Source of the DNA: Chitinophagales bacterium
GTDB taxonomy: Bacteria > Bacteroidota > Bacteroidia > Chitinophagales > CAIODY01
Assembly (NCBI GenBank): GCA_947452995.1
Contig: CANGEV010000016.1
Coordinates: 1-53,968 of the forward strand
DNA length: 53,968 nt
Direction of reading: 5' to 3'
The first letter of the stretch is position 1; each line of letters opens with the position of its first letter. Of the stretch, positions 8,518 through 48,238 are shown piece after piece. The position numbers and the translations under genes are program-made. A model generated the notes under the pieces. The model was given only the letters and a program-made list of their open reading frames with translations, was not told where the DNA came from and did no database searches.

Positions 8518-10878
8518 ATGAAGAAAATTTCCTTCTCTTTTTTGATGCTTGTTTCCTTTGTTTGCTTCGCAATTTCTGGAGCAAATGCACAAGCAGTCAT
8601 CTCGGCAGAAAGCTTTGACGGTACTACATTCGTACCTAATGGCTGGGCGCTTTTTCCAGCCACGTCTACATCCCAAGCAGTATGGTCGCGCCGTACTACG
8701 GGTACGCAAACCGTTACGGTTGCTCCGCACACAGGCGCAGCAATGGCATCTTTCCGTTCATCAGCAGGCGTTGCTGGTAATACACAGTCGCTTATTTCTC
8801 CAGCTTTTGATCTTTCGAATCGTGGGTCGAATAACGCAGGTATCCGTTTTTGGATGTTCCGTGATAGCGGATTAACTGCTAACGTAGATCGTATGGAAAT
8901 TCTTGTTAACACTACTCCAGATACAACAGGCGCTGTGGTAATTGGTCAAATTGCACGTAATCGTTACGTAAATTTACCAGATACCCAATTGGCAAACGGT
9001 TGGTATCAATACTCGTTTACTTTCCCATCTAACTTCCAAGGCACAACAAACTATGTAATGTTACGTGGTGTCTCTGCTGTAGGTAATCGTATGTATGTGG
9101 ATGATGTAGAATTTGATGCGTTCCCTCCTCCTTGTTCTGGAATGCCTTACGTAGGAGATATAGCTAATTCCTTAAACATCCTTTGCAATGGCGGTGGAAC
9201 AGCTACATTATCTTTCACCAACCCATTAACTGGTATCGCTGGTTTGACTTATCATTGGCAATATTCAGTGAATCCGTTAAGCGCGTTCACAGATTTCGGT
9301 GATACCCTTTCAAATACAGTAACTACACCTGTTTTAAGCCAAACAACTTATTTCATGTGTACCGTTCATTGTGCTTTCTCTGGTCAAGATTATATCACTA
9401 ATATTGATTCTATCATCGTATCTCCAAACCCAAATCCAACCATTACTGTCAATAATTTGACAGGACCTGTTTGTCCTTATACTGGCGGTGTAACACTAAC
9501 GGCAACTGGTGCTGTTTCTTATGTTTGGACTCCGGCTGCTAGCATTAGTAACTTAGGTAATAATTTTGATTCTGTTCTAGCTAATCCTGCAGGAACAACC
9601 AATTATACAGTGGTAGGTACTGACGCATTTGGTTGTGTTGGCACAGCAAATACTACTGTTCAATTAAATCAAGCACCTGCTAAACAAGCAATTCAAGTAT
9701 TGGTAGGTAATGATACAGTATGTGCTGGAGCAACGGTTATTTTACGTGGAAATCCTGGCGGTTTCGGTCCTAACCAAAATACCTATACTTGGTCAGATGG
9801 TAAAACAACACGTAACGATACAATCTTAGCTTCAAATTCAACTTTATATGTTGTTACTGTAACAAACGGTGGTGGATGTAGTACTCTAGATTCACTACAG
9901 TTAGTAGTTACACCAGGTACAGCTCCGTCAATTAGCGTTGTTGGCGGACCGTTCAGTTCTTGTAACGGAACCCCTGTAACCATGAACGTAACTGGTACAG
10001 GTACATCTTATTCTTGGAGTCCTGCAGCAACATTAGATACTGCAGCCGGAACAACCGTTATTGCAACACCACTTAACACAACAAACTACACTGTAACAGC
10101 TACATTAGGTTCTTGTACTAACTCAACATTAATTACTGTTCTCGCTGGTGCTTCTCCTACTTTGAATCCGACCGTTTATAACATGAATAACCAAGCTATT
10201 GGTGATACTGTTTGTGCGGGATCAACCATTGTATTAAATGCAATGCCTTTCGGTCAGAATGGCGTATCCTATGTTTGGTCTGATGGTAAGCCTACACGTC
10301 GTGATACCATCACTCCAACAGCTTCTGCAATGTATGTAGTGAATGCAACTTCAGCAATTGGTTGTACCAATACTGATTCTATCTATTTAACGGTAGTTCC
10401 TGCTCCAGTTCCTGCATTTACTTACGCTGCTACTGGTTGGACTGTTAACTTCACAGATGCTTCAACAGGTGCTTTGTCATATACTTGGAGCTTCGGTGAT
10501 GGTACTTTCGATAATAATGCAAGTCCTTCACATACCTATGCTGCTGATGGTACTTATAATGTAACATTGACTATCATGGGTGCGTGTGGCCCGGATAGCA
10601 CAACTCAATCTGTAACAGTCGCTGCTGGTATTGGTATCAATACTATTGCAACAACTAACTTCAATGTTTACCCTAACCCAGCTGCAGATGTAATCGCAGT
10701 TCGTTTGCCTTCTGCAACTACAGTAGTAATAACGAATGTTATGGGCCAAGAAGTAATGCATATGGATATTGCAGCACAAGCTTCTTTGAATGTGAATCAA
10801 TTGCCTGCTGGTGTTTATAGCATCAAGGCTTCTGATAAACAAGGAAAGGTTTATACAGCAAAATTTGTAAAACAATAA
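8518..10878 (+). CDS. T9SS type A sorting-domain secreted protein with jelly-roll, Ig-like and PKD domains
   Basis: The 786-residue product has a clear signal peptide (KKISFSFLMLVSFVCFAISG, cut near ANAQA). Residues about 28-200 form a MAM/choice-of-anchor-like sandwich (AESFDGTTFVPNGW at the start, MYVDDVEFDAF at the end). Several Ig-like repeats with the pattern YVWSDGK-TRRDT / TLYVVT follow. A PKD domain lies at about 628-705 (YTWSFGDGTFDNNASPSHTY). The final ~75 residues start NFNVYPNPAADVI and end GVYSIKASDKQGKVYTAKFV, the type A T9SS C-terminal signal, usually removed on export. No catalytic domain is visible. A structural, adhesive or carbohydrate-binding surface role is an inference. 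It is a single-gene unit with its own terminator. Confidence 0.92.
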   Translation: MKKISFSFLMLVSFVCFAISGANAQAVISAESFDGTTFVPNGWALFPATSTSQAVWSRRTTGTQTVTVAPHTGAAMASFRSSAGVAGNTQSLISPAFDLSNRGSNNAGIRFWMFRDSGLTANVDRMEILVNTTPDTTGAVVIGQIARNRYVNLPDTQLANGWYQYSFTFPSNFQGTTNYVMLRGVSAVGNRMYVDDVEFDAFPPPCSGMPYVGDIANSLNILCNGGGTATLSFTNPLTGIAGLTYHWQYSVNPLSAFTDFGDTLSNTVTTPVLSQTTYFMCTVHCAFSGQDYITNIDSIIVSPNPNPTITVNNLTGPVCPYTGGVTLTATGAVSYVWTPAASISNLGNNFDSVLANPAGTTNYTVVGTDAFGCVGTANTTVQLNQAPAKQAIQVLVGNDTVCAGATVILRGNPGGFGPNQNTYTWSDGKTTRNDTILASNSTLYVVTVTNGGGCSTLDSLQLVVTPGTAPSISVVGGPFSSCNGTPVTMNVTGTGTSYSWSPAATLDTAAGTTVIATPLNTTNYTVTATLGSCTNSTLITVLAGASPTLNPTVYNMNNQAIGDTVCAGSTIVLNAMPFGQNGVSYVWSDGKPTRRDTITPTASAMYVVNATSAIGCTNTDSIYLTVVPAPVPAFTYAATGWTVNFTDASTGALSYTWSFGDGTFDNNASPSHTYAADGTYNVTLTIMGACGPDSTTQSVTVAAGIGINTIATTNFNVYPNPAADVIAVRLPSATTVVITNVMGQEVMHMDIAAQASLNVNQLPAGVYSIKASDKQGKVYTAKFVKQ

Positions 10879-46427: not shown

Positions 46428-46474
46428 ATTCACTATTCACCCCGATTGCAACGCTATCGGGATCACTATTCACC
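46428..46474. repeat. ATTCACC heptamer array interrupted by a 21-base hairpin; contains the rlmN stop
   Basis: Units ATTCACT and ATTCACC (46428-46441) are followed by the imperfect palindrome CCCGAT-N9-ATCGGG (46441-46461). The array then resumes with TCACT and ATTCACC up to 46474. The rlmN TAG stop (46468-46466) lies in the resumed units. The same heptamer family occurs at 32515-32549. Confidence 0.8.
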
Positions 46475-47524
46475 ATTTGTGGTGTTTTTATTCGCCAATT
46501 GACCACACGCTGCATCAATATCTTTACCACGACTACGACGAACACGAACGTTCACACGATTCTTTTGCAAGTAGGTAATAAATTTATCTAAGCTTTCATG
46601 TCCTGCCTTTTGATAAGGGACATCATCTACGGTATTATATTCAATCAGGTTTACTTTTGAAGGAATACGACGACAGAGTTTTACCAAATTGGCGGCATCT
46701 GTTTCGGAGTCGTTCACATCTTGGAATAGGATATATTCATAGGTAATGGCAGTGCCTGTTTTCTTGTAGAAATAGTCTAAAGCCTCTACTAAATCTTCCA
46801 AGGTATTGGTATCGTTGATTGGCATCATTTTACTACGTTTTGCATTGTCTGCAGCGTGCAATGAGATGGCTAAGTTGAATTTCACTTTTTCATCTGCCAT
46901 TTCTCTGATCTGTTTAGTAATACCTGAAGTAGAAACAGTGATTCGGCTTGGGCTCATGGCCATACCTTTCGGAGACGTGATTTTATCGATGGAGCGGATT
47001 ACGTTATTGTAATTCAATAAAGGTTCGCCCATTCCCATATAAACGATATTTGAAAGACGTTTATTGTAGTTCTTTTCTGCAATTTCTTGTAGAATGGCTA
47101 CTTGGTCGAAGATTTCATAATGGAATAGATTACGCACGCGTTTCATTTTGCCAGTCGCACAGAAACGGCAGGTAAGACTACAGCCTATTTGAGAACTAAT
47201 ACAAGCGGTTAGACGGTCGGTGGTAGGGATTAGCACCCCTTCGATGAAGTGGTTGTCAAAAGTCTTAAAACGGACTTTAATCGTGCCGTCACTACTCTGT
47301 TGCGTTTGATCAACTGTAATGGCTCTGAATTCATAACGAAGCGCGAGTTCCTCGCGAAGGTTTTTTGAGAGATTGGTCATGGCGTCGAAAGAGCGTGCCC
47401 ATTTCATCCATAACCATTCGTGAATCTGTTGCAGTCTGAACGGTTTTTCATTCAAATCATTCAACAAAATGCTCAGCTCTTCATTGGTAGCTTCTCTTAA
47501 TTCTTTTTTAGCTTTTGAATTCAT
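46466..47524 (-). CDS. rlmN: 23S rRNA (adenine(2503)-C2)-methyltransferase / tRNA A37 methyltransferase
   Basis: RlmN is a radical-SAM enzyme that methylates A2503 of 23S rRNA and A37 of some tRNAs. The 352-residue protein has ACISSQIGCSLTCRFCATGK, holding the CxxxCxxC cluster motif, NIVYMGMGEPLLNYNNVI, the catalytic cysteine region RRSRGKDIDAACGQLA and LAISLHAAD. I place the start at ATG 47524 (MNSKAKKELREA). A longer frame from 47587 runs through the promoter and into tsaB. The -7 box ends four bases before this ATG. The last codons and stop lie in an ATTCACC repeat. Confidence 0.95.
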   Translation of the reverse strand: MNSKAKKELREATNEELSILLNDLNEKPFRLQQIHEWLWMKWARSFDAMTNLSKNLREELALRYEFRAITVDQTQQSSDGTIKVRFKTFDNHFIEGVLIPTTDRLTACISSQIGCSLTCRFCATGKMKRVRNLFHYEIFDQVAILQEIAEKNYNKRLSNIVYMGMGEPLLNYNNVIRSIDKITSPKGMAMSPSRITVSTSGITKQIREMADEKVKFNLAISLHAADNAKRSKMMPINDTNTLEDLVEALDYFYKKTGTAITYEYILFQDVNDSETDAANLVKLCRRIPSKVNLIEYNTVDDVPYQKAGHESLDKFITYLQKNRVNVRVRRSRGKDIDAACGQLANKNTTNGE

Positions 47525-47528
47525 AACA

Positions 47529-47536
47529 CAAAGATA
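47529..47536 (-). promoter_or_regulatory. -7 box of rlmN
   Basis: TATCTTTG on the minus strand is a full consensus match, with four bases between it and the rlmN ATG. Confidence 0.55.
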
Positions 47537-47557
47537 CTCCAAAAGACGATGAATATG

Positions 47558-47565
47558 TACATTTG
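47558..47565 (+). promoter_or_regulatory. -7 box of tsaB
   Basis: TACATTTG is a full consensus match, with four bases (CAGA) between it and the tsaB ATG at 47570. It sits 21 bases from the divergent rlmN box. Confidence 0.55.
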
Positions 47566-47569
47566 CAGA

Positions 47570-48238
47570 ATGGCTTATTTGTTGCATATCGAAACGTCTT
47601 CAAACTGTTGTAGTGTCGCATTAAGTGAAGATGCCGTATTAAAGGGTGTTCTGGAGGAAATTCAGCCCAATACACATGCTTCTTCTTTGCCTCTATTTAT
47701 TCAAGAATTGCTGAGACAAAACGGACTATCGACACGTGATTTAGCTGCCGTAGCAGTTGGTATTGGACCAGGCTCCTATACGGGTTTGAGGGTTGGATTG
47801 AGTTTGGCAAAAGGAATATGTATGGTTAATGATATTCCTTTAATAGCACTTTCTTCTTTGAAAATAATGGCTAAAGGTATGCAAGAACGATATCCAACGC
47901 ATAGCGGTTATTTTGTACCACTTGTAGATGCAAGAAGAATGGAGGTGTATACTGCTCAATATGAGCAAAATTTAGAGGTAATAAAAAGCGAATATGCGCT
48001 GATTGTTAAAGAGCAGGATTGGTCTGAATCGTCCATTCCATGCTTGTTTGGAGGTAGCGGAGTACTGAAAGTAAAACAGCTCTTGGGCGAAAGTGAAAAT
48101 CGCATTTTTGATGGCGAAAATCAGTTTAATAGCGCCCGTTTTATGCCTGATTTGGCTTTTGAAAAGTTCCTCAAAAAGGAGTTCGCCGACCTAGCCTATA
48201 CTGAGCCAGCCTATTTGAAGGAATGGGGGCAATTTTGA
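47570..48238 (+). CDS. tsaB: tRNA threonylcarbamoyladenosine biosynthesis protein TsaB
   Basis: TsaB forms the TsaBDE complex that places t6A at position 37 of ANN-decoding tRNAs. The 222-residue protein shows YLLHIETSSNCCSVALSE, HASSLPLFIQELL and the signature VAVGIGPGSYTGLRVGLSLA with KGI after it, and PLVDARRMEVYTAQY. The start is ATG 47570. An ATG at 47549 and one at 47555 are in frame but lie upstream of or next to the promoter box, so they are unlikely. Confidence 0.94.
   Translation: MAYLLHIETSSNCCSVALSEDAVLKGVLEEIQPNTHASSLPLFIQELLRQNGLSTRDLAAVAVGIGPGSYTGLRVGLSLAKGICMVNDIPLIALSSLKIMAKGMQERYPTHSGYFVPLVDARRMEVYTAQYEQNLEVIKSEYALIVKEQDWSESSIPCLFGGSGVLKVKQLLGESENRIFDGENQFNSARFMPDLAFEKFLKKEFADLAYTEPAYLKEWGQF

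Follow-up and report, generated by a model that had tools for sequence, protein, structure and literature searches.

A probable compact divergent promoter pair between rlmN and tsaB in a Chitinophagales bacterium and the recurrent start-proximal −7 box of rlmN

The 45-bp gap between the rlmN and tsaB genes of a Chitinophagales bacterium is probably a compact back-to-back pair of sigma-A(Bfr) promoters from which both mRNAs would be leaderless. Judged from sequence comparison, the arrangement on the tsaB side appears to be a genus-level feature, and that on the rlmN side a recurrent and apparently selected state. All coordinates refer to the window, i.e. the whole stretch of 53,968 nucleotides that was analysed. 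Within it, rlmN (46466–47524, minus strand, start at 47524) and tsaB (47570–48238, plus strand, start at 47570) lie back-to-back on either side of the gap (47525–47569). TAnnTTTG, the −7 box of Bacteroidota promoters, is present on both strands of the gap, and in each direction 4 nt separate the end of the box from the ATG. On the minus strand, TATCTTTG (47536–47529) is followed by the spacer TGTT (47528–47525) and the rlmN ATG at 47524. On the plus strand, TACATTTG (47558–47565) is followed by the spacer CAGA (47566–47569) and the tsaB ATG at 47570. Each is the sole box on its strand within 0.8 kb (rlmN) or 0.9 kb (tsaB) upstream, and the 21 bp between them (47537–47557) form the upstream part of both promoters. 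The boxes, the 45-base gap and the exact 4-base spacing reported in the initial annotation are borne out to the base on both strands.

Of the two elements of sigma-A(Bfr) promoters, the −7 element TAnnTTTG is present at both promoters, and the −33 TTTG was found at neither. The latter was not taken as obligatory, because in Flavobacterium johnsoniae the −33 element is also reported to be much less evident (PMC6847099). Around the gap, E. coli-type sigma-70 promoters were not found beyond the chance level. Within the rlmN coding region, a CGCGAG/CTCGCG stem with a 3-nt loop precedes a T-rich run on the plus strand (47342–47356), antisense to the gene; it is terminator-like by consensus only.

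The position of the boxes relative to the start codons is informative when it is compared with published promoter maps. In F. psychrophilum, the −7 box is placed at −12 to −5 relative to +1 (PMC9723704), and in probable promoters of F. johnsoniae the distance from the box to +1 is given as 4 or 5 nt (PMC6847099). Because both boxes in the gap end 4 nt upstream of the ATG, this offset places the predicted +1 on the A of both start codons (47524 and 47570), which is the position of the promoter core that characterizes leaderless genes. The start codons themselves are supported by homology. RlmN (352 aa, a 23S rRNA A2503/tRNA A37 methyltransferase, identified from its translation) scores 378 bits against TIGR00048 (the cut-off is 290 bits), with residues 5–348 aligned to model positions 5–347. 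TsaB (222 aa, the dimerization subunit of t6A synthesis) scores 147 bits against TIGR03725 (the cut-off is 69 bits), with model position 1 aligned to residue 4 (numbered from the 47570 start), and its tblastn matches in two related genomes, G002 and G001, begin at residue 1. Both start codons are plausible, since the family-model alignments begin near each predicted N-terminus.

In the window, TAnnTTTG alone is not enriched (60 observed, 64.6 expected). Against an expectation of 1.24, the combination TAnnTTTG-N4-ATG occurs exactly twice in the 54 kb, each time at a real gene start (rlmN and tsaB), in one gap. Simple ORF rules were used for gene calling. In samples of this genome totalling 454 kb, box-to-start distances have their peak at 4 nt (10/327 ORFs), with 5/327 ORFs at 5 nt. 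The 4-nt peak persists when the rlmN–tsaB pair is left out (8 ORFs versus ~2 per neighboring bin, Poisson P ~0.001). The 4- and 5-nt fractions agree with leaderless shares reported for Bacteroidota, namely 3.7% of leaders shorter than 10 nt in Bacteroides thetaiotaomicron (PMC7366714) and 5.5% leaderless in F. psychrophilum (PMC9723704); in F. johnsoniae, 13% of leaders are reported to be ≤10 nt (PMC6847099). Leaderless genes as a kind are already known, in Bacteroidota at ~4–6%.

In G002, the nearest species examined (RlmN 96% and TsaB 70% identical), the gap also measures 45 bp and contains an identical 38-bp run, which includes the inter-box segment and the tsaB box. The only differences lie in the two 4-nt spacers (CCCT for rlmN, CACT for tsaB) and in the final position of the rlmN box, which reads TATCTTTA. 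The identity of the run points to strong constraint because four-fold sites of rlmN are only 41% identical between the window genome (G000) and G002. In the more distant G001, rlmN keeps TATCTTTG at 4 nt from the ATG with yet another spacer (CAAC), so that the letters of the spacer differ and its length is the same; the tsaB box of G001 is imperfect and lies 13 nt from the start. In a sister genus (G003–G005), rlmN boxes are located 20 nt from the start, and leaders are therefore tolerated. Alignment of the gap across related genomes, proposed in the initial annotation as a check on the 4-base spacing, bears the spacing out in both directions in G002 and for rlmN in G001, but not for tsaB in G001. 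Its suggestion that both messages are leaderless is strengthened by comparison (the published 4–5 nt offset, the spacing in G002, and rlmN in G001 and in many families) and weakened on the tsaB side, where the spacing is lost in G001.

The rlmN promoter was compared across the order. A box lies at exactly 4 nt from rlmN in 40/109 order genomes and at 4–9 nt in 70/109, whereas control ORFs around rlmN, examined with the same permissive kind of test, have it in 10/961 and 28/961 cases, respectively (Fisher P = 6e-34 and 5e-58; these values ignore relatedness and are indicative only). When starts were assigned by a rule blind to the box, 37/104 rlmN genes had it at 4 nt (shuffled upstream sequences, 0.04), and eight further genomes had a one-mismatch box at exactly this distance. 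About a third of the order genomes have no near box at rlmN. In other orders of the class, the box is found at 4–9 nt in 7/20 cases, and among named contigs, many of them from Flavobacteriales, in 16/21, mostly at 7–9 nt. The recurrence of this layout, far above that in other genes, suggests that a leaderless rlmN is favored by selection. The upstream sequences of rlmN are otherwise dissimilar among genomes (mean identity 0.27), and on the RlmN tree the state changes at least 25 times, versus a mean of 34.6 for shuffled labels. Together, the number of changes and the dissimilarity of the remaining upstream sequence point to repeated gain and loss. A single ancestral promoter is unsupported as the whole explanation, yet clustering of the genomes exceeds that of shuffled labels, so relatedness contributes. 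Genome compaction as the origin of short leaders is likewise unsupported; the median upstream gap is 119 bp in the 4-nt class and 77 bp in the rest.

Two variants of the box were noted exactly 4 nt upstream of rlmN. Boxes in which the final G is replaced by A (TATCTTTA, TAACTTTA) recur in G002 (L003), G007 (L010), G036 (L017) and G057 (L163), suggesting a tolerated variant of the −7 element. Endings in TTTCG instead of TTTTG/nTTTG (TAATTTCG, TATTTTCG) recur in G027 (L104), G039 (L105) and G052 (L115).

Other genes were examined for the same property. In this genome, thiL, tsaB, iscS and purB all have the box at 4 nt, and across genomes it is found at this distance in 10/29 (genomes of the order), 3/34, 2/30 and 4/30 cases, respectively. 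As thiL, iscS and purB were chosen for comparison on the basis of their 4-nt spacing in this genome, a choice that favors them, the contrast with rlmN is conservative. thiL (L083:12000–13061, minus strand, with orthologs L236–L265) behaves like rlmN and would be another gene that is recurrently leaderless, in contrast to iscS and purB. The rarity of the layout elsewhere for iscS, purB and tsaB shows that a leaderless gene in this genome does not predict a leaderless ortholog. It also bears on the pairing of the two genes, for which the initial annotation had hinted at a shared role in ribosomal or tRNA maturation. Among the genomes examined, the divergent rlmN–tsaB pair is confined to this genus (3/3 species), and rlmN elsewhere has other divergent partners. 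The hint is not sustained, and a functional rlmN–tsaB pair was rejected.

In the mechanism that we propose, RNA polymerase would recognize each TAnnTTTG and initiate transcription 4–5 nt past the box, at the purine of the start codon. The rlmN and tsaB mRNAs would then be leaderless (leader of 0 to 1 nt) and would be translated from a 5′-terminal AUG without upstream ribosome signals. Across Bacteroidota, rlmN mRNA would very often carry a leader of 0 to ~5 nt. The reason for selection is probably that a box directly at the start codon provides simple, low and constitutive expression without leader-based control. With boxes 21 bp apart and predicted start sites 46 bp apart, one polymerase would span both promoters, and simultaneous occupancy of the two would therefore be precluded. 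In E. coli bidirectional promoters, however, basal transcription is too low for polymerase competition (PMC12825309), so exclusion may matter little at rlmN–tsaB.

Several other explanations were weighed against this mechanism. The promoters could be real but +1 could vary by a few nucleotides, with some mRNAs bearing a leader or beginning within the AUG. Leaderless translation would then account for only a share of the output, and tight packing, not a leaderless design, would underlie the 4-nt spacing. The distances of rlmN orthologs, which span 4 to 9 nt and reach 8–9 nt in Flavobacteriales, agree with such variation, as a leader of up to ~5 nt appears to be tolerated. We nevertheless consider this explanation unlikely, because the ortholog distances peak sharply at 4 nt (40 of the 70 within 4–9 nt), the genome-wide distances peak at 4–5 nt, and upstream gaps in the 4-nt class are no shorter. 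It is very unlikely that tsaB is instead translated from an in-frame ATG at 47549 or 47555 (47549–47557) on a longer transcript, with TACATTTG being coding sequence and not a promoter. Both codons are in frame and both are kept in G002, but they would lengthen the protein by only 7 residues, the family model begins 3 residues past the 47570 Met, and in G001 an in-frame TGA, read directly from the sequence, occupies this region. Moreover, there is no further plus-strand box within 0.9 kb to drive a longer transcript, and coding cannot account for 38 identical bases without a third-position change. In the proposed mechanism, these ATGs would lie upstream of +1 and hence be absent from tsaB mRNA. 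That the 4-nt spacing arose by chance, with rlmN and tsaB leaders coming from undetected promoters, is likewise very unlikely: about one occurrence of box-N4-ATG per window is indeed expected, but both copies sit at real starts in one gap, and neither the identity in G002 nor the excess across rlmN genes would be expected by chance.

Bacteroidota lack Shine–Dalgarno signals, and how start codons are chosen in them is a standing question. A promoter at the start codon of rlmN in many families provides a clean natural setting in which to test leaderless translation. It also offers an aid to start-codon annotation, as TAnnTTTG located 4 nt upstream of an ATG, where that ATG heads an ORF, hints at the true start. 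A broader idea, which we consider quite unlikely, is that rlmN and thiL are among a few Bacteroidota genes whose leaderless state is actively maintained, the reason being that initiation without a leader ties their expression to the state of the ribosome. In that case, feedback could arise for rlmN, in that the enzyme methylating 23S A2503 would be synthesized through an initiation route that is sensitive to ribosome maturation.

Leaderless genes mapped in Bacteroidota by dRNA-seq or RNA-seq (PMC7366714, PMC9723704, PMC6847099) have the same −7 box and form the same small minority. As far as we could find, they have so far been counted and not tracked gene by gene; the portions of these reports considered here do not cover gene-wise conservation or rlmN, whereas the present sequence-based predictions single out rlmN and thiL across families. 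Our literature search found no paper linking rlmN with leaderless mRNA in Bacteroidota or describing a conserved leaderless rlmN. Of the 37 Bacteroidetes/Chlorobi genomes examined by Zheng et al. (2011), only 1 was found to have leaderless genes; the authors noted that their Pribnow-based search may underestimate them in Bacteroidetes (PMC3160421), a bias that may explain why they were missed earlier. In Deinococcus-Thermus, where a −10 motif adjoins the ORF (PMC12340547), and in the TA-like class of Zheng et al., the promoter core likewise lies a few bases 5′ of the start codon and yields leaderless mRNA, but the sigma consensus (TANNNT/Pribnow) is unlike TAnnTTTG.

The gap also resembles bacterial bidirectional promoters, in which two divergent promoters are near enough for one polymerase to exclude the other (PMC12825309); for rlmN–tsaB, such a footprint overlap is predicted from the spacing. 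In E. coli, these promoters share pseudo-symmetrical elements (PMC12825309), whereas a distance of 21 bp separates the −7 boxes of rlmN and tsaB, with no overlapping or symmetric core. A closer counterpart of the E. coli kind is found where the divergent neighbor of rlmN is an amidohydrolase (PF01979; 21/145 loci), which among NCBIfam models comes closest to the aminofutalosine deaminase family, with a score below the cut-off. In Flavobacteriales-type contigs (L175–L182), the gap between these genes is 31–43 bp (31–32 bp in 7/8). In several of them (e.g. L177, ~9959–10000), the sequence reads CAAAAGTA-ATA-TATCTTTG, with divergent −7 boxes separated by ~3 bp. This arrangement would constitute a nearly symmetric bidirectional promoter, with predicted leaders of ~0 nt for the partner and ~4 nt for rlmN.
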